In this document: in pieces, positions 6,441 to 12,600 of the stretch
Numbering within the stretch: position 1 is the stretch's first letter
How the letters are laid out: each line of letters starts with the position of its first letter
Assembly: GCF_019511665.1 (NCBI RefSeq)
Contig: NZ_JAEUAW010000004.1
Coordinates: forward strand, 124,001-188,000
Direction: 5' to 3'
Length of the DNA stretch: 64,000 nt
Source of the DNA: Microbacterium jejuense
Lineage (GTDB): Bacteria; Actinomycetota; Actinomycetes; Actinomycetales; Microbacteriaceae
The notes under the pieces: model-generated
The model's input: only the letters and a program-made list of their open reading frames with translations
Told to the model about the DNA's origin: nothing
Database searches by the model: none
Program-made: the position numbers and the translations under genes

Positions 6441-6719
6441 GTCCAATCCCCGCTCGAGACACCCAGCTGAGCTTGAAACATCCTAGACGGGCGTCAACTG
6501 TTCAAGGATGCCGCGGCCGCGCCGCTCCCGGCTCGCCTGCCCATTCGTCGCGGCATCCGGAAACGCTCGATTCTTACGCTCTCAGACGCCGCGCGCGGGC
6601 CGTCGAAGGCACCATTTTCGGCTCACCGAAGTTTCAGAATGCGGCCAAAAGCGGGCAAAAGCGCAGTCTGAGTGGTCTGACCACAGAAGAAATGCCTGGT
6701 CAGAGGCAAAAAGAGACTG
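6441..6719. other. Intergenic island border, no gene seen
   Basis: There is no credible gene. The right half is A-rich compared with the window and holds short inverted repeats, for example TGGTC-T-GACCA near 6677. It directly abuts the 3' end of tRNA-Arg, where a site-specific integration junction would lie. No integrase gene or second att copy is in the window. Confidence 0.4.
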
Positions 6720-6791
6720 TGCCCCTGGAGGGACTCGAACCCCCAACCGTTTGCTTAGGACGCAACTGCTCTTCCATTGAGCTACAGAGGC
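6720..6791 (-). tRNA. tRNA-Arg (anticodon CCT)
   Basis: On the minus strand the acceptor arms GCCTCTG and CAGGGGC pair with one G-T, and the T arm carries GGTTCGAGTCC. The anticodon loop GTCCTAA gives CCT, which reads AGG. The discriminator base is A and CCA is not encoded. The 3' end faces the accessory genes at 1-6440, so the gene may be the attachment site of an island. Confidence 0.93.
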
Positions 6792-7362: not shown

Positions 7363-9075
7363 TCACGGGCGCGGGCCCCCGCCACCGGGGCCGCCGCCCA
7401 TCCCACCGGCGACGTTCGAACCCTCGGTGATCGTCGCGGCGGTCGTTCCGTTCACGGCGACGGTGTACGAACCGCCGTCAGTCACCCCCGGGCCGCTGTA
7501 GAACACGGCGCTGAAGTCGCGGCCGGCCTCGAACGTGGCGATCGTGGTGCCGGCGGCATCCATCACGGTCACCGTATCGCCCGCCGACCCCGACGCCGTC
7601 GCGGCGAGCCACTGCTGCGCACCGGTCGGGTCGACCAGCGCGGTGCCCGCCACGAGCACCTCGCCGCCGTCGATCGTGATGGCGCCGTTGGCGTCGAGCG
7701 CACCCTGACCGCCCGCGTCGCTCGGGCCGCTCAGCACCGCGGTGCCGCCCGTGATCGCGATCGTGCCGTTGGAGTCGAGGCTGTCGCCGCCCGACACGAC
7801 GCGCAGGGATCCGCCTGAGATCGTCAGGGTCTCGCCGGTGTTCTGCTCGCCGCCCGCGCCGGCGCCGGCGGCGTTCAGCCCGTCGTCGCTTGCGGTGACA
7901 TCGACCGTGCCACCTGCGAGGGCGATGTCGGTGGCCTCGAGCCCCTCGTATGCGTCCGTCACCGTCACGTCCCCGTCGCGGATCTCGAGCCGCTGATCGG
8001 CGTGGATGCCGTCGTCGCCGGTGGCCACCGTCACGGTGCCCCCGCCGATGCCGACCGAGCCGTTCGAGTGGATCGCGTCGTCGGCGGCATCGACGCCGAC
8101 CTCGCCGCCGTCGATCGCGACGACGACGCCGGCGCTGATGCCCTTGGCGCCCGCGTCGGCGTCGCCGTCGGCGCCCGAACCGGACTCGATCGTGACCGTG
8201 CCGCCCGTGATGACGGCGTCGGTCGCGACCGCGATGCCATCGTCGCCGCTCGTGAGGTCGATGGTTCCGCCGGTGATCGCCACGAAGCCCTGCGTGGCGT
8301 CGGAATCCTGGTCGCTCTTGAGCGCGTCGCCGCCGGCGGTGATCTCGATCGTTCCGCCCTCGACGGTGAGCGAGTCCTTGCCGCGCAGGCCGTCGTCGGC
8401 AGCGTCGACGGTGAGCGCACCCGAGAGGACCACCAGGTCGTCCGTCGAAGTGATCCCGTCGTTGCCGTTGCCCGACACCTCGAGCGACCCGGTGCCCGAT
8501 ATCGTCAGATCGGCGTCGGCGTAGATCGCGGCGTTCGCCTCGGCGTCGTCGGCGTACGACGACACGTCCGACACCGAGTTGGAGCTGCCGTCGGCGAGAT
8601 ACAGCGCCACATCGTCGGCGCTCGTCACGGTGATGCCGGGGGAGCCGGATGCCGTCACGTCGGCGTCGTCGAGAATCAGCACGACCTGCGCGCCGTCGGG
8701 GGCCGCCACGACGATCTGCCCGTCGAGCGAGCCTGACAGGCGGAACACCCCTGCCGCCGTGATCGTGACGGTCGAGCCGTCGACGGTTACCGCGTCGGAG
8801 TCGGAGGAGGCGGAGGAGCCGCTGAGGGTGATGTCGGCGGCATCCGCTTCGCTCCATTCGTCGTCGTTCACCGTGGTGACGTCGGCGTTCGCGGCGAGCA
8901 CCGCCTCAGCGCTCAGGTCGGAGTCGACGACTGTCGCCGTCTCGGCGGTGGAGGTATCGCTCGTAGCGGCCGACGACGAGGCGGCGGTCTGGGCCGCGCA
9001 GCCGGCGAGCACGACGGCGGCGAGCGTGAGCGGTGCGGCCGCCAGGATCAGGCGGCGCTGGTGGTGACGGGGCAT
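7363..9075 (-). CDS. Carbohydrate-binding beta-helix lipoprotein (Cthe_2159-type)
   Basis: The protein has 570 residues. It has a lipoprotein signal peptide with lipobox LAGC and the lipidated Cys at residue 26. A Ser/Thr/Ala/Asp-rich linker follows. The body is made of repeated rungs such as ADDGLRGKD, GDDGIAVAT, DDAIHSNGS and GDDGIHADQ, typical of the right-handed beta-helix carbohydrate-binding family PF14262 (Cthe_2159). It ends in a Gly/Pro-rich tail. ATG at 9075 has GGAGGA upstream. The start overlaps the end of the VTC-domain gene by 28 bases, so it is the last gene of a five-gene operon. Family members bind acidic polysaccharides and often sit beside VTC and DUF4956 genes. A role in anchoring or sensing a cell-surface polymer is inferred. 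Confidence 0.85.
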   Translation of the reverse strand: MPRHHQRRLILAAAPLTLAAVVLAGCAAQTAASSSAATSDTSTAETATVVDSDLSAEAVLAANADVTTVNDDEWSEADAADITLSGSSASSDSDAVTVDGSTVTITAAGVFRLSGSLDGQIVVAAPDGAQVVLILDDADVTASGSPGITVTSADDVALYLADGSSNSVSDVSSYADDAEANAAIYADADLTISGTGSLEVSGNGNDGITSTDDLVVLSGALTVDAADDGLRGKDSLTVEGGTIEITAGGDALKSDQDSDATQGFVAITGGTIDLTSGDDGIAVATDAVITGGTVTIESGSGADGDADAGAKGISAGVVVAIDGGEVGVDAADDAIHSNGSVGIGGGTVTVATGDDGIHADQRLEIRDGDVTVTDAYEGLEATDIALAGGTVDVTASDDGLNAAGAGAGGEQNTGETLTISGGSLRVVSGGDSLDSNGTIAITGGTAVLSGPSDAGGQGALDANGAITIDGGEVLVAGTALVDPTGAQQWLAATASGSAGDTVTVMDAAGTTIATFEAGRDFSAVFYSGPGVTDGGSYTVAVNGTTAATITEGSNVAGGMGGGPGGGGPRP

Positions 9076-9881
9076 GACGAGTCCTCCTCGTTCGTGGCGG
9101 TCGATGCGGTCTGGGGCGCGGCGCGCCGTGCGTCGTCGAACGGTCCGCGCAGCAGACGCGACCAGCGGTTGCGTGGCAGATCGGGATGCAGCGCCGCCAG
9201 TCCCGTCGCGTACTTGCTGACGGTGGCGGGGCGGTGGCCGGCACGCCACAGCGCCCGATCGACCTCCGACGGGCGGGCGCCGGACTTCGTCTCGACGATC
9301 GCCACCTCGGGCAGGGCGAAGCCGCTCCCGTCCGGCTCGATCCACTCCAGCGCGGTGTCGACAGTGGCGCGGCCCGAGGCGCCGGGGGCCAGCAGCGTCG
9401 CCCGCCGGTAGCGCGTCATGAGCGTGGCGTCGAGCTCGTCGGCGCGCTCTGACGCGACGCCGATGGTGGCCAACGCGTCGGCGACGTCGTCGCGCGCGTC
9501 GTCCGTCAGCCGGTCGCGGTGCCGCGGGTCGTACTCGCCGCGATCCTTCACGGTCGTGCCGCGTGCTCCGCGGGTCTTGATCTCGAGGTACGACGTGCCG
9601 GTGTCGAGGTAGCTGCGCGTGCGCAGCTTGAACCGGCGTCGGCGCGGCTGCGCGGCCATGCGGAAGCTCAGAAGGTCGGGGGTGTCGAAGTACACGGATT
9701 CGTAGGCGAACTCTCTCGCACCGTCGATCTCGAGCACCCGCGTGCGGGGGTCGATCGCCGCGACGATCGCATCCAGGTCCGCGCGCGGGACGACGTATTT
9801 GCGGTCTACGCGGGTGAGGAGGGATGCCTCGGCCACGAGCTCCTCGAGCATCACCGGGTCGAACCGGCCCAGCGCCGTCAT
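9048..9881 (-). CDS. VTC-domain polyphosphate polymerase-like protein
   Basis: The protein has 277 residues, a single VTC domain (PF09359). The features are RVDRKYVV near residue 24, VYFDTPDLLSFR near 68, the basic run RRRRFKLRTRSY, and YLEIKTRG, which are the strands and basic residues that line the catalytic tunnel of yeast Vtc4. There is no SPX domain or membrane helix. Yeast Vtc4 makes polyphosphate from ATP; whether bacterial members do so, or make another phosphate polymer, is less settled. It overlaps the upstream DUF4956 gene by four bases (ATGA). DUF4956 probably supplies the membrane partner. Confidence 0.85.
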   Translation of the reverse strand: MTALGRFDPVMLEELVAEASLLTRVDRKYVVPRADLDAIVAAIDPRTRVLEIDGAREFAYESVYFDTPDLLSFRMAAQPRRRRFKLRTRSYLDTGTSYLEIKTRGARGTTVKDRGEYDPRHRDRLTDDARDDVADALATIGVASERADELDATLMTRYRRATLLAPGASGRATVDTALEWIEPDGSGFALPEVAIVETKSGARPSEVDRALWRAGHRPATVSKYATGLAALHPDLPRNRWSRLLRGPFDDARRAAPQTASTATNEEDSSCPVTTSAA

Positions 9882-10471
9882 CGTCCGGCCCCCGCGACGG
9901 CGGTGACCGCGCGGGCACCGGGACGCGGCATCCGGTACCGCACATCCACGAGAGTCGTGTCGTTCACGAGGTCGAGCTCGTGCACGGTCGTGGAGCTGAC
10001 CACGCCGCCGAGGCGCGCCTCGAGCTCGGAGCGCAGTTCGTCGTCGTCCGTCACGGCACGATCCAGCCGCACCACCTGGTGTCGCGCGCGAGCGAGGAAC
10101 GCGGGATGATCGGCGGCCCACAGCACGACGAGGATGAGAGCGACGAGGGCGGCCACAGGCCACGGGTCGGCCTGCGGCAGTCCCGTGACGAGTCCGATCG
10201 CGAGCGCGGCGAAGTAGTACGCCACCTCGCGCTGCGTGATCTCGGACGAGCGCAGCCGGATGATCGACAGCACGCCGAACAGGCCGAGCCCCAGGCCCAT
10301 GGCGACCTCGGCGGTGCCCAGCACCGCCGCGACGGCCATGACCCCGACGTTGACCCCGAGGAAGGCGACGACGAGGTCGCGACGGTGATGCCGGCGGTAG
10401 TAGAGGCCGAGGCTTAGGACGAGGGCGGCGGCCAGATCGATGCCGATCAGGATCAGCGCGCTGGTGGTCAT
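9878..10471 (-). CDS. DUF4956 membrane protein
   Basis: The protein has 197 residues. About four N-terminal membrane helices (residues 5-125) contain the family motif GLGLFGVLSIIRLRSSEI. A soluble C-terminal domain follows. Function is unproven. Genes of this family are regularly next to VTC-domain genes, so a membrane channel or anchor for the VTC enzyme is a reasonable guess. It overlaps by four bases with the genes on both sides (start with the glycosyltransferase gene, stop with the VTC gene), so stoichiometric translation is likely. Confidence 0.8.
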   Translation of the reverse strand: MTTSALILIGIDLAAALVLSLGLYYRRHHRRDLVVAFLGVNVGVMAVAAVLGTAEVAMGLGLGLFGVLSIIRLRSSEITQREVAYYFAALAIGLVTGLPQADPWPVAALVALILVVLWAADHPAFLARARHQVVRLDRAVTDDDELRSELEARLGGVVSSTTVHELDLVNDTTLVDVRYRMPRPGARAVTAVAGAGR

Positions 10472-11604
10472 GGGTTCCTCCCGATGGGGTGTTCGTTCGC
10501 ATCCATTCGAGCCGCGGCCGCTATGGGGTCCCTATGACGCGGTTCGGGCCCGGGCCTGAGTTCCGCACGATCCTGCTGGGTGCCGAAGACGAAGCTGCGC
10601 TGCACGCCGTAGCTCGTGACGAACAGCACCGCCTCGGTGACCGCCTTGGCGAGCACGAGCGGCACTCCGTAGCGCGTGAGCGCGTCGAGCCACACGATGT
10701 TCGACGCCAGGAGCGCGACGGCCAGCACCCCGTATCGGGCCAGCTGACGAGGCATCCCTCGCCGCCCCCGGGCGCGGAAGACCATGCGACGGTTCACCGC
10801 GAAGTTGACCGAGGCGCTCACGACACGCGCGCCGACGATCGCCGGCACGAGGGCGCCCGTCACCGCCGTGAGCACGAGCAGCATGACCGTGTCGACCGCG
10901 AACGCGAGCAGCGACGAGCCCGCGAACAGCAGCAGCGGCAGCATGACGCGCAGCGAATCGACGATCGGGCGGAAGTGGCTCGACGCGTTCCCGTCGAGGT
11001 AGACGGTCTCGATCGGCACTTCGCGCGTCGCGATGCCCGCGCGCCGGCAGTGCAGCAGCACGTTCTGCTCGTACGCGAAGCGCTCGCCCGGCCGGTCCCT
11101 CACCCACTCGAGGAACTGTGAGGGGATGCCGCGCAGCCCGGTCTGCGTGTCGCTCAGGCTCCACCCCGCCGCGAGCCGGAAGACGGCGCGTGCCACCGCG
11201 TTGCCTGCACGGGAGCGCAGCGGCACGCGGCCCGAGAAGTCGCGGCATCCGAGCACGAGCGTCGGCGCGCCCTTCGCAGCGTCGGCGCGCAGCTCGTCGG
11301 CCACGCGCAAGATGTCGGCCACGGTGTGCTGCCCGTCGGCGTCGGCGGTCACGACGTCATCTCCGGCGTGCACGTCGAGCACATGGTCGAACCCCGTGCG
11401 CAGAGCGGACGCTTTGCCGCGGTTGACGTCGTGCCGCAGCACCGTCGCGCCGAGGCCCTCGGCCATCGCGAACACGGGCGCGAAGGCCGGACCACTCCCG
11501 TCGTCCACCACGACCACCTCGACGTCGGGATCGGCGGCGAGCAGGCGCGCGACCAGCCCGGCCAGCCGTGGCCCGGGCTCGTAGGCGGGGATGAGCACGA
11601 TCAC
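10468..11604 (-). CDS. Bifunctional GT2 glycosyltransferase / GtrA membrane protein
   Basis: The protein has 378 residues. Residues 1-215 form a GT-A domain of family 2: VVVDDGSG near 32, then TADADGQH, the DxD-type metal site, near 90. Residues about 225-345 are a GtrA domain with four membrane helices, the fold that moves lipid-linked sugars across the membrane. The fusion suggests it makes and flips a polyprenyl-phosphate sugar. It is separated by three bases from the upstream phosphodiester glycosidase gene and overlaps the DUF4956 gene by four. The polymer it serves is unknown. Confidence 0.87.
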   Translation of the reverse strand: MIVLIPAYEPGPRLAGLVARLLAADPDVEVVVVDDGSGPAFAPVFAMAEGLGATVLRHDVNRGKASALRTGFDHVLDVHAGDDVVTADADGQHTVADILRVADELRADAAKGAPTLVLGCRDFSGRVPLRSRAGNAVARAVFRLAAGWSLSDTQTGLRGIPSQFLEWVRDRPGERFAYEQNVLLHCRRAGIATREVPIETVYLDGNASSHFRPIVDSLRVMLPLLLFAGSSLLAFAVDTVMLLVLTAVTGALVPAIVGARVVSASVNFAVNRRMVFRARGRRGMPRQLARYGVLAVALLASNIVWLDALTRYGVPLVLAKAVTEAVLFVTSYGVQRSFVFGTQQDRAELRPGPEPRHRDPIAAAARMDANEHPIGRNP

Positions 11605-11607
11605 GGC

Positions 11608-12600
11608 TCACCCCTCCGCCGACGCGTCGGCGATGTAGAGGATGTCGCTCGTGCCGCGCTCGCCGCCGTTGGACGGCTGGTTGACCACCTCGCCGTTGAA
11701 GTACATGGTCGAAGACCCGCCGCCGTCGAGGTTGTACGCCGTGGTGGCGCCGAGGTCGATCATGATGTCGGCGAGCTCGGTGAGCGTGACGCCGGCGCTG
11801 TAGCCCGACTGCCGCCCGTCGACGACGACGAACACGAGGTGGTTCTCGTCGATCACTCCCACGGCGGTGCGGGGCTGGTCGCCCTGGATCGAGTGGTTGC
11901 CGAAGTTGGTGTCGACCTCGACGTCTTCGATGCCGTCGACGACAGAGCCCTCCTCGACGATCGCAGGGCCGAAGCTCAGCGTGTTCCAGGCGCCGTCGGC
12001 GAGGAGCTCGTCGGCCGTCGTGGTGGTCTCGTCGTACACCGCGACGCGGCCATCGGTGTAGAACACCAGCCCCTGCCGCGCCGGCTCGTCACGGAAGACG
12101 ACGCCGTTGCGGATGACGATGCCGGTGTCGCGGAAGCCGTAGTAGTCGCCGTTGATGGCGAAGATCGCGTTGTTGTCGGCCGCGATGGCGCTCGTGGTCT
12201 CGGTGATGTTCTCGCCGAACTGGTCCTTCGCGAAAGCGCTGCGCACGGCCGTGGCGTCCGAGAGCGTGACGTCGGCGACGTAGTACGTCACGGTGTCGGA
12301 GCCCGATCCCTCGGTGACCGTCGAGATCGTGATCGACGTCGAGCCGTCGGAGTAGGACGTATCGGTGACGGTGGTCGCGGCATCCGTCGCTCCGTCCGTC
12401 TCGGCGTCGTCGGTCGTCGACGGATCGGCGGACGTCGTGGAGTTCTGCGCCTCGTACTCCGACACGTCGGCGATCTCGACATGCTCGATCAGGAAGCGGT
12501 CGGCCGCCCACACCGCCCCGCCGCCCGCGCTCAGCGCGACAACGAGACCCGAGGCGATGACGATGTTGCGGGTGCGCCGCTTCTTGTGCGAAGTGTCCAT
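11608..12600 (-). CDS. Phosphodiester glycosidase (NAGPA) domain exported protein
   Basis: The protein has 330 residues. A membrane anchor or signal segment lies at residues 12-33 and a Ser/Thr-rich stalk at 50-95. The C-terminal half has AINGDYYGFRDTG, TAVGVIDENHLVFVVVDGR and YNLDGGGSSTMYF, the signature of the NAGPA family (PF09992), which cleaves sugar phosphodiesters. It is the first gene of the five-gene operon and so sets its promoter, somewhere in 12601-12759. An outer-surface enzyme that trims sugar-phosphate links in a wall polymer is inferred; the substrate is not known. Confidence 0.85.
   Translation of the reverse strand: MDTSHKKRRTRNIVIASGLVVALSAGGGAVWAADRFLIEHVEIADVSEYEAQNSTTSADPSTTDDAETDGATDAATTVTDTSYSDGSTSITISTVTEGSGSDTVTYYVADVTLSDATAVRSAFAKDQFGENITETTSAIAADNNAIFAINGDYYGFRDTGIVIRNGVVFRDEPARQGLVFYTDGRVAVYDETTTTADELLADGAWNTLSFGPAIVEEGSVVDGIEDVEVDTNFGNHSIQGDQPRTAVGVIDENHLVFVVVDGRQSGYSAGVTLTELADIMIDLGATTAYNLDGGGSSTMYFNGEVVNQPSNGGERGTSDILYIADASAEG

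Follow-up and report, generated by a model that had tools for sequence, protein, structure and literature searches.

A VTC-DUF4956 gene pair at the core of a five-gene operon of Microbacterium jejuense: a possible bacterial system for polyphosphate synthesis and export

Introduction

The system described here is a five-gene operon in a 64,000-nucleotide stretch of DNA from the soil bacterium Microbacterium jejuense (NCBI RefSeq assembly GCF_019511665.1, contig NZ_JAEUAW010000004.1, positions 124,001 to 188,000), to which we refer as the window. Its core is a pair of genes coding for a VTC-domain protein and a DUF4956 membrane protein. The closest described system is the yeast VTC complex, which, according to passages of PMC9911596, couples synthesis with translocation via a basic channel. 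Judged by the same passages, the locus in the window is similar in having a predicted polymerase of the tunnel fold, which shares the active-site residues, and a membrane partner with conserved basic residues. It differs in that the polymerase and the membrane part are separate proteins, whereas yeast Vtc4 acts with Vtc1/Vtc3 membrane parts; in addition, the VTC protein showed no SPX domain, DUF4956 serves as the membrane part, and the far side of the membrane would be the cell surface and not the vacuole.

The accessory genes of Gram-positive pel loci also combine a VTC-type gene and a DUF4956 gene in one operon with a CotH-like partner (passages of PMC7112168). In contrast, the partners in the window are a Cthe_2159 lipoprotein and a NAGPA-GT2/GtrA pair (NAGPA-GT), no CotH match was found in the genome, and the operon contains no pel gene. 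For the group of cotH, poly-phosphate polymerase and DUF4956 genes beside pel, it was suggested that CotH may regulate Pel synthesis (passages of PMC7112168), and a Clostridium perfringens locus holds VTC-domain and CotH genes (passages of PMC2879425). The parts of PMC7112168 and PMC2879425 that bear on these genes do not propose a function that VTC and DUF4956 would share. Our literature searches covered openly licensed papers, in part; within this scope, no report of the five-gene set, no function study of DUF4956 and nothing on surface polyphosphate with bacteria and capsule were found.

Other products of the locus recall further known systems. In GtrA/GtrB/Gtr sugar modification, a three-component arrangement, a GT2 enzyme and GtrA make and flip a polyprenyl-phosphate sugar, and the remaining slot is ordinarily filled by a third transferase. 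Here, unlike in those systems, synthase and flippase are fused, and their constant neighbour is a NAGPA-type glycosidase and not a membrane transferase. In MgtC, a small alpha/beta domain comes after the membrane helices. DUF4956 resembles MgtC/SapB in this order of parts and in a glycine-rich membrane motif; the window protein does not reach the MgtC profile, which is matched by just 7 of 35 DUF4956 members (best E 5.3e-6).

The Five-Gene Operon

The five genes are co-directional and occupy positions 12600 to 7363 of the minus strand, in the following order:

11608..12600, minus strand: NAGPA domain protein, phosphodiester glycosidase (NAGPA PF09992, E 1.3e-40)
10468..11604, minus strand: GT2 glycosyltransferase fused to a GtrA/DPMS membrane domain, GTG start (PF00535, Glycos_transf_2, E 9.6e-14; PF04138, GtrA_DPMS_TM, E 2.4e-14)
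9878..10471, minus strand: DUF4956 membrane protein (PF16316, E 1.1e-62)
9048..9881, minus strand: VTC-domain protein, triphosphate tunnel polymerase type (PF09359, E 8.5e-24)
7363..9075, minus strand: Cthe_2159 beta-helix lipoprotein (PF14262, E 1.8e-84)

All five products exceed the Pfam cut-offs, and the coordinates agree with the original prediction of an operon of these families whose genes overlap or lie three bases apart. The NAGPA gene ends at 11608 and the GT gene begins with GTG at 11604, leaving a gap of 3 bases; GT and DUF4956 overlap by 4 bases (10468-10471), as do DUF4956 and VTC (9878-9881), and VTC and the lipoprotein gene overlap by 28 bases (9048-9075), given a lipoprotein start at 9075. 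Promoter and terminator scans gave no signal above that of shuffles. A tRNA-Arg (CCT) gene at window positions 6719-6791 lies ca. 0.6 kb beyond the end of the operon and, given the patchy distribution described below, might mark an insertion site.

Gene order was compared in 97 VTC loci, i.e., the stretches fetched around VTC genes, four named loci and the window, with neighbouring genes scored by profiles grown from the window proteins. Two of the 97 (L033 and L100) represent one contig, and loci from 8 of the 42 VTC-positive genomes of the phylum sample introduced below are not among them. The same five genes recur in the same order in 26 of the 97 loci (25 of 96 distinct loci), and therefore the arrangement is not due to chance and is conserved beyond this strain. 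VTC identity among the named loci is highest in M. helvum (86%), M. ureisolvens (83%) and M. yannicii (83%). That the products act together, as had been proposed from gene spacing, is now very probable from the kept order and from the finding, presented below, that NAGPA-GT tracks the VTC module even where it is unlinked.

VTC and DUF4956 Are Near-Obligate Partners

Samples of 149 Microbacterium, 199 family and 396 phylum genomes were searched, the window's genome being common to the genus and family samples. VTC is patchy and occurs in 35, 26 and 42 genomes, respectively. DUF4956 is found in exactly the same 35 Microbacterium genomes, and the two genes are adjacent by coordinates in all 37 Microbacterium copies. 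In the phylum sample, each of the 42 VTC genomes has a DUF4956 match (that of G568 falls below the family cut-off), and matches beyond the 42 are limited to two genomes, G615 (below cut-off) and G645 (strong), the latter being the only genome of this sample that clearly has DUF4956 without VTC. Across the 97 loci, DUF4956 adjoins VTC on the same strand in 96, standing before it in 75 and after it in 21. We conclude that VTC and DUF4956 are near-obligate partners.

The pairing extends to plasmids and to other phyla. Sixteen plasmid records with VTC were retrieved, and the window's DUF4956 protein matched 14 of them in a separate search; the two missed records are from Deinococcus, and DUF4956 is annotated in both. 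In all eight plasmid records that were opened, DUF4956 is located beside VTC (six by annotation, those of Nonomuraea and Streptomyces by profile). Twelve alphaproteobacterial records matched, and in each of the four opened, DUF4956-VTC is followed by a phytase-like protein, in one case with a phosphate transporter in between. One of the two Deinococcus records has CotH, and in Deinococcus QL22, acid phosphatase and phosphonate uptake genes are located near VTC-DUF4956. In Paenibacillus cellulosilyticus, VTC, DUF4956 and lipoprotein genes follow one another, and a two-component system (seen by eye) diverges from them. A histidine kinase/response regulator pair was also noted by eye near 27 of the 97 VTC loci. 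A phage origin was considered and rejected, since a VTC search of phage records at 1e-5 returned no match.

The VTC Protein Resembles the Yeast Polyphosphate Polymerase Vtc4

The AlphaFold2 model of the VTC protein has a mean pLDDT of 92.3. No membrane helix was seen in the protein, and no Pfam domain besides VTC, hence no SPX domain, was found. Foldseek returned yeast Vtc4 as the best match of the model (E 3.3e-12); VIA aligned it with Vtc4 carrying AppNHp at Z 17.4 over 214 residues; the highest score for a tunnel enzyme that is not a VTC protein was Z 14.0 (ygiF). A profile of 48 bacterial VTC sequences matched Vtc4 (3g3q) at E 2.2e-21. Thus, the VTC protein looks like the polyphosphate-type polymerase that had been proposed for it.

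The putative active site comprises R24, K28, R87, R89, K102, K112, R160, R171, E197, K199 and K223. For comparison we used Vtc4 residues K281, K294, R361, R373, K458 and K200, which we take to be active-site residues, along with R264, R266 and E426, which were exchanged in a catalytically impaired complex (passages of PMC9911596). Vtc4 R264, R266, K281 and K294 correspond to R87, R89, K102 and K112 of the window protein, and R361, R373, E426 and K458 correspond to R160, R171, E197 and K223; all of these are invariant in the 48 sequences, and the K200 equivalent is K or S.

Enzymes of the same fold can also be hydrolases. According to section 19 of PMC4641920, four basic Vtc4 residues are replaced by glutamates in tripolyphosphatases, and AtTTM3 has Glu-171 two residues past a metal-binding Glu. 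The equivalent of Vtc4 K428, which occupies the place of Glu-171, is Lys in 48 of 48 bacterial sequences, as in Vtc4. The equivalents of Vtc4 R196 and T198, placed against AtTTM3 Glu-2 and Glu-4 by motif spacing, are Arg in 48 of 48 and D, E or T, respectively, so this mapping is unsure. Taken with the fold and the invariant residues, a polymerase appears more likely than a hydrolase. Since PPK1 is also encoded in the window's genome, VTC could plausibly provide a second, specialised polyphosphate route.

DUF4956 Is a Predicted Five-Helix Membrane Protein

DUF4956 was modelled by AlphaFold2 with a mean pLDDT of 83.4 and a pTM of 0.61. The prediction shows five membrane helices, then a small C-terminal beta-alpha-beta-beta domain; an RRHHRRD loop joins helices 1 and 2. 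Two arginines stand at the end of helix 3; R74 is invariant and R72 is kept in at least 90% of 35 sequences. By the positive-inside rule, the RRHHRRD loop suggests that the C-terminal domain and R72/R74 face the cytosol, i.e., the VTC side. The best VIA score of the model, Z 6.8, is within the range of common arrangements, and the DUF4956 profile reached PDB sequences with an E of 1.3 at best.

As to kinship, hhalign compared DUF4956 with MgtC at a probability of 21% and E 0.001, using as few as 5 MgtC sequences. A weak relationship is possible. MgtC was rejected as a firm family assignment, given the hhalign value and the 7 of 35 members that reach its profile, and is kept as a lead only.

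Surface Proteins Accompany the Pair

The Cthe_2159 lipoprotein is present in 67 of the 97 VTC loci. In Microbacterium, it occurs in 32 of 35 VTC-positive vs. 2 of 114 VTC-negative genomes, one of the two (G036) having a partial match. The lipobox Cys26 is conserved in at least 95% of 71 relatives, and several Asp residues are conserved too. The protein is strongly acidic, with 84 D+E vs. 13 K+R among 570 residues; its acidity and conserved Asp residues would suit it for metal-bridged binding of an acidic polymer.

In 15 other loci, a CotH gene lies beside the pair, and none of these 15 has the lipoprotein in its stretch. CotH was called by clustering in 12 loci (two of them confirmed by Pfam) and by Pfam in three, and is on the opposite strand in three (L167, L168 and L172). 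Altogether, 82 of 97 loci have a Cthe_2159 or a CotH gene beside the pair. A simple scan detected a lipobox-like motif in 62 of 67 Cthe_2159 frames; of the 15 CotH frames, 12 showed a hydrophobic stretch at the N-terminus.

These partners have to be set against the possibility that VTC-DUF4956 makes polyphosphate, or short chains, that remain intracellular or membrane-bound and serve phosphate or energy balance; DUF4956 would then be an anchor or regulator with no export, and the surface genes would have a promoter in common with the pair because all of them answer to one stress or two-component system. Such a scheme would fit the two-component genes seen near 27 of 97 loci, the 15 loci that have neither surface gene, and the weak MgtC-like signal of DUF4956, which might point to a regulator and not to a channel. 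It is at odds with the 82 loci in which a surface gene adjoins the pair, with the lipobox-like motifs and hydrophobic N-termini, and with the recurrence of a lipoprotein or CotH gene beside the pair in other phyla. We consider it unlikely, while giving it serious weight.

The pair and its CotH or lipoprotein partner could also be an accessory set for the display of an exopolysaccharide or adhesin, as next to pel operons, with another matrix in Microbacterium. In streptococci and clostridia, cotH, poly-phosphate polymerase, DUF4956 and DUF4832 genes are contiguous with pelDEADAFG (passages of PMC7112168), and PF14262 is distantly related to an adhesive beta-solenoid cluster (passages of PMC9210967). 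On the other hand, no polysaccharide synthase was found among the 11 of 36 recurring neighbour families that were examined, a weak argument, and pel genes were not searched for genome-wide. To us, an accessory role of this kind seems quite improbable.

NAGPA-GT Is a Separable Unit That Tracks the VTC Module

The NAGPA domain (residues 143-323) follows an N-terminal membrane anchor and a Ser/Thr/Asp-rich linker, both recognised by eye, and is predicted to lie outside the membrane. Within it, 40 residues, including DGR and DGGGS, are invariant in 42 relatives; sequence relatives in PDB include 6ozd, 3ohg and mammalian NAGPA entries, e.g., 6pkg. The original prediction spoke of a surface phosphodiesterase; the NAGPA family assignment holds, but a general phosphodiesterase does not, as NAGPA is a sugar-1-phosphodiester glycosidase. 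In GT2-GtrA, residues D88, D90, Q92 and H93 are conserved in at least 95% of 41 relatives. Its best NCBIfam match is the polyprenyl-phospho-GalNAc synthase PpgS (E 1.9e-15, far under the cut-off), and PDB sequences gave no match at E 0.001. From its Pfam domains, it looks like a polyprenyl-phosphate sugar synthase/flippase, which agrees with the lipid-linked sugar flippase-transferase originally suggested.

A short NAGPA (frames mostly of 310-380 residues) was detected in 26 of 149 Microbacterium genomes, all VTC-positive, with GT2-GtrA beside it in 26 of 26 loci. NAGPA-GT is thus present in 26 of 35 VTC-positive vs. 0 of 114 VTC-negative genomes (Fisher 9e-22; co-occurrence counts and Fisher tests, here and throughout, are uncorrected for relatedness). 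It is part of the operon in 21 genomes and unlinked in five (G108, G008, G080, G081 and G093); with unlinked cases alone, the comparison is 5 of 14 vs. 0 of 114 (Fisher 8e-6). In the family sample, the short NAGPA occurs in 12 genomes, 11 of 26 VTC-positive and 1 of 173 VTC-negative (Fisher 2e-10), or 7 of 22 vs. 1 of 173 when unlinked cases alone are counted (Fisher 7e-7). GT lies beside NAGPA in 11 of the 12, the twelfth falling past a contig end if present; one GT (G311) was read as two frames. Other NAGPA matches in Microbacterium are weak fragments or belong to a different type with frames of ca. 1,250 residues (L213-L216), seen in one VTC-positive and five VTC-negative genomes.

The NAGPA-GT pair was also seen in Actinomyces oris (60% NAGPA identity) and P. 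cellulosilyticus (58%), the best two of 19 records. In A. oris, an annotated histidine kinase/response regulator pair is located beside it. P. cellulosilyticus has all five families on two replicons, with VTC-DUF4956-lipoprotein apart from NAGPA-GT. Where NAGPA-GT is unlinked or the lipoprotein gene stands alone (14 stretches compared), no additional family was found in more than three stretches, save for a frame antisense to NAGPA (13 stretches); L233-L235 have local context in common. A glycan cluster around unlinked NAGPA-GT was therefore rejected, this antisense frame being the only widely recurring family. We conclude that NAGPA-GT is a second, separable two-gene unit that tracks the VTC module.

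This tracking bears on the possibility that the genes merely hitch-hike as a single island gained and lost as a block, with no joint function. Patchy presence (35 of 149 genomes), the tRNA-Arg ca. 0.6 kb past the operon, Fisher tests that ignore relatedness and the placement of the unlinked Microbacterium cases in one tree group (see below) would all be expected from it; NAGPA-GT tracking VTC while unlinked in five Microbacterium genomes, seven other family genomes and one Bacillota strain would not, and we regard it as very unlikely.

In the original prediction, the operon looked like a system for making or tethering a phosphate-containing glycopolymer, which would be teichoic-acid-like. The genes do co-occur, and glycan, phosphodiester and polymerase functions are combined. 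Yet no NAGPA of this type is present in 69 of 97 VTC loci (absence being counted within the fetched stretch), and 15 of 97 have CotH and no beta-helix protein. Furthermore, tunnel enzymes of this kind act on nucleoside triphosphates or on inorganic triphosphate, and the residue set is that of Vtc4 and not that of a polyol-phosphate polymerase; the operon is without a polyol-phosphate polymerase, ligase or further transferase. A single glycopolymer is therefore too specific a proposal, and we find it distinctly improbable.

A Possible Mechanism and Its Weighing

The reading that we favour, tentatively and at slightly less than even chances, is that VTC makes polyphosphate for export by DUF4956, that the lipoprotein deals with the chain on the outside, and that the substrate of NAGPA is the polyprenyl-phosphate sugar made by its partner. 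What mainly gives it this standing is the VTC fold with its invariant active-site residues and the pairing with DUF4956. The family assignments, this fold and residue set, the near-obligate pairing and the co-occurrence of NAGPA-GT are shown by the data; the nature of the polymer, its export, a VTC-DUF4956 complex, lipoprotein binding, the NAGPA substrate and the joint function are inferred from them. Cytosolic VTC would polymerise phosphate from ATP within its tunnel in the manner of yeast Vtc4, and membrane DUF4956 would dock VTC and pass the chain outward, the two forming one machine. The acidic beta-helix lipoprotein would retain or organise the chain at the surface, most simply via metal-ion bridges; its place may be taken in other bacteria by a phytase-like protein or by a CotH kinase that is secreted. 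GT2-GtrA would make and flip a polyprenyl-phosphate sugar, in itself a sugar-1-phosphodiester. NAGPA, located outside, may act on this sugar in the slot of the third transferase; this is proposed because NAGPA is the constant companion of GT in two phyla. The operon lacks a gene for a third transferase, and no such gene recurs constantly beside the unlinked NAGPA-GT pairs (14 stretches). The outcome of the NAGPA step could be glycosylation of a surface partner (the lipoprotein or the polymer) or recycling of the carrier.

Several observations weigh against polyphosphate export by this route. Export through DUF4956 is argued by analogy: the DUF4956 model had no match in PDB at E <= 0.001 and does not clearly resemble the membrane part of the yeast complex, the best yeast VTC chain scoring Z 4.4 (9umg_F). 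One of the 97 VTC loci, L151, lacks DUF4956; it is the third VTC copy of G548, which has two DUF4956 genes. The strong DUF4956 match of G645 lies on a 6.2-kb contig (L237) and no VTC was detectable in that genome. In the polymerase, the equivalent of Vtc4 T198, two residues before the conserved lysine, is D, E or T in bacterial proteins, so the acidic patch of triphosphatases may be partly kept; the patch was mapped by motif spacing at three of its four places (all but Glu-90). A measured product of a bacterial VTC-DUF4956 pair was not found in the openly licensed papers covered. Outside the cell, 15 of 97 loci, some on short contigs, have neither lipoprotein nor CotH, and an acidic lipoprotein would need metal ions for polyphosphate binding.

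The part assigned to NAGPA-GT meets objections of its own. The polyprenyl-phosphate sugars made by such GT2 enzymes are believed to be beta-linked, whereas human NAGPA cleaves alpha-linked ones. The co-occurrence counts are not corrected for kinship, and the five unlinked Microbacterium genomes sit in a single group of the VTC-DUF4956 tree (8 rows, support 97, one row with a very long branch); a second G093 copy is located elsewhere on the tree, which has 8 changes of state in total. In P. cellulosilyticus, a second glycosyltransferase gene adjoins NAGPA-GT on the opposite strand. In G254 (L258), whose membership in the VTC-searched family sample was deduced from its handle, NAGPA-GT and a lipoprotein gene lie side by side in divergent orientation, and the genome gave no VTC match; it may therefore be the lipoprotein, and not the polymer, that NAGPA-GT serves.

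If polyphosphate is indeed made and exported by the pair, yeast polyphosphate synthesis and export would have a bacterial counterpart with another membrane subunit, aimed at the cell surface and, among the records examined, present in four phyla or more. DUF4956 would gain a function, NAGPA-type enzymes would gain a natural bacterial substrate, and the adjacency of VTC-like genes to those of CotH kinases, phytase-like proteins and beta-helix lipoproteins would be explained.

A bolder version, which we think improbable, is that exported polyphosphate is a working surface substance: in actinobacteria, NAGPA would act as a transferase that glycosylates or anchors the chain, and in relatives with CotH, the chain would donate phosphate to a secreted kinase, for which ATP is lacking outside the cell. 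In Microbacterium, CotH occurs in 5 of 35 VTC-positive vs. 4 of 114 VTC-negative genomes (Fisher 0.03) and lies beside VTC in G116 alone. CotH was accordingly rejected as a general dependent of VTC, and, as it is rarely linked, the phosphate-donor idea receives little support within the genus.

Gly-rich stretches were noted at the C-terminus of the window lipoprotein (7363-7400) and in one linked CotH protein (L168:9188-10810).

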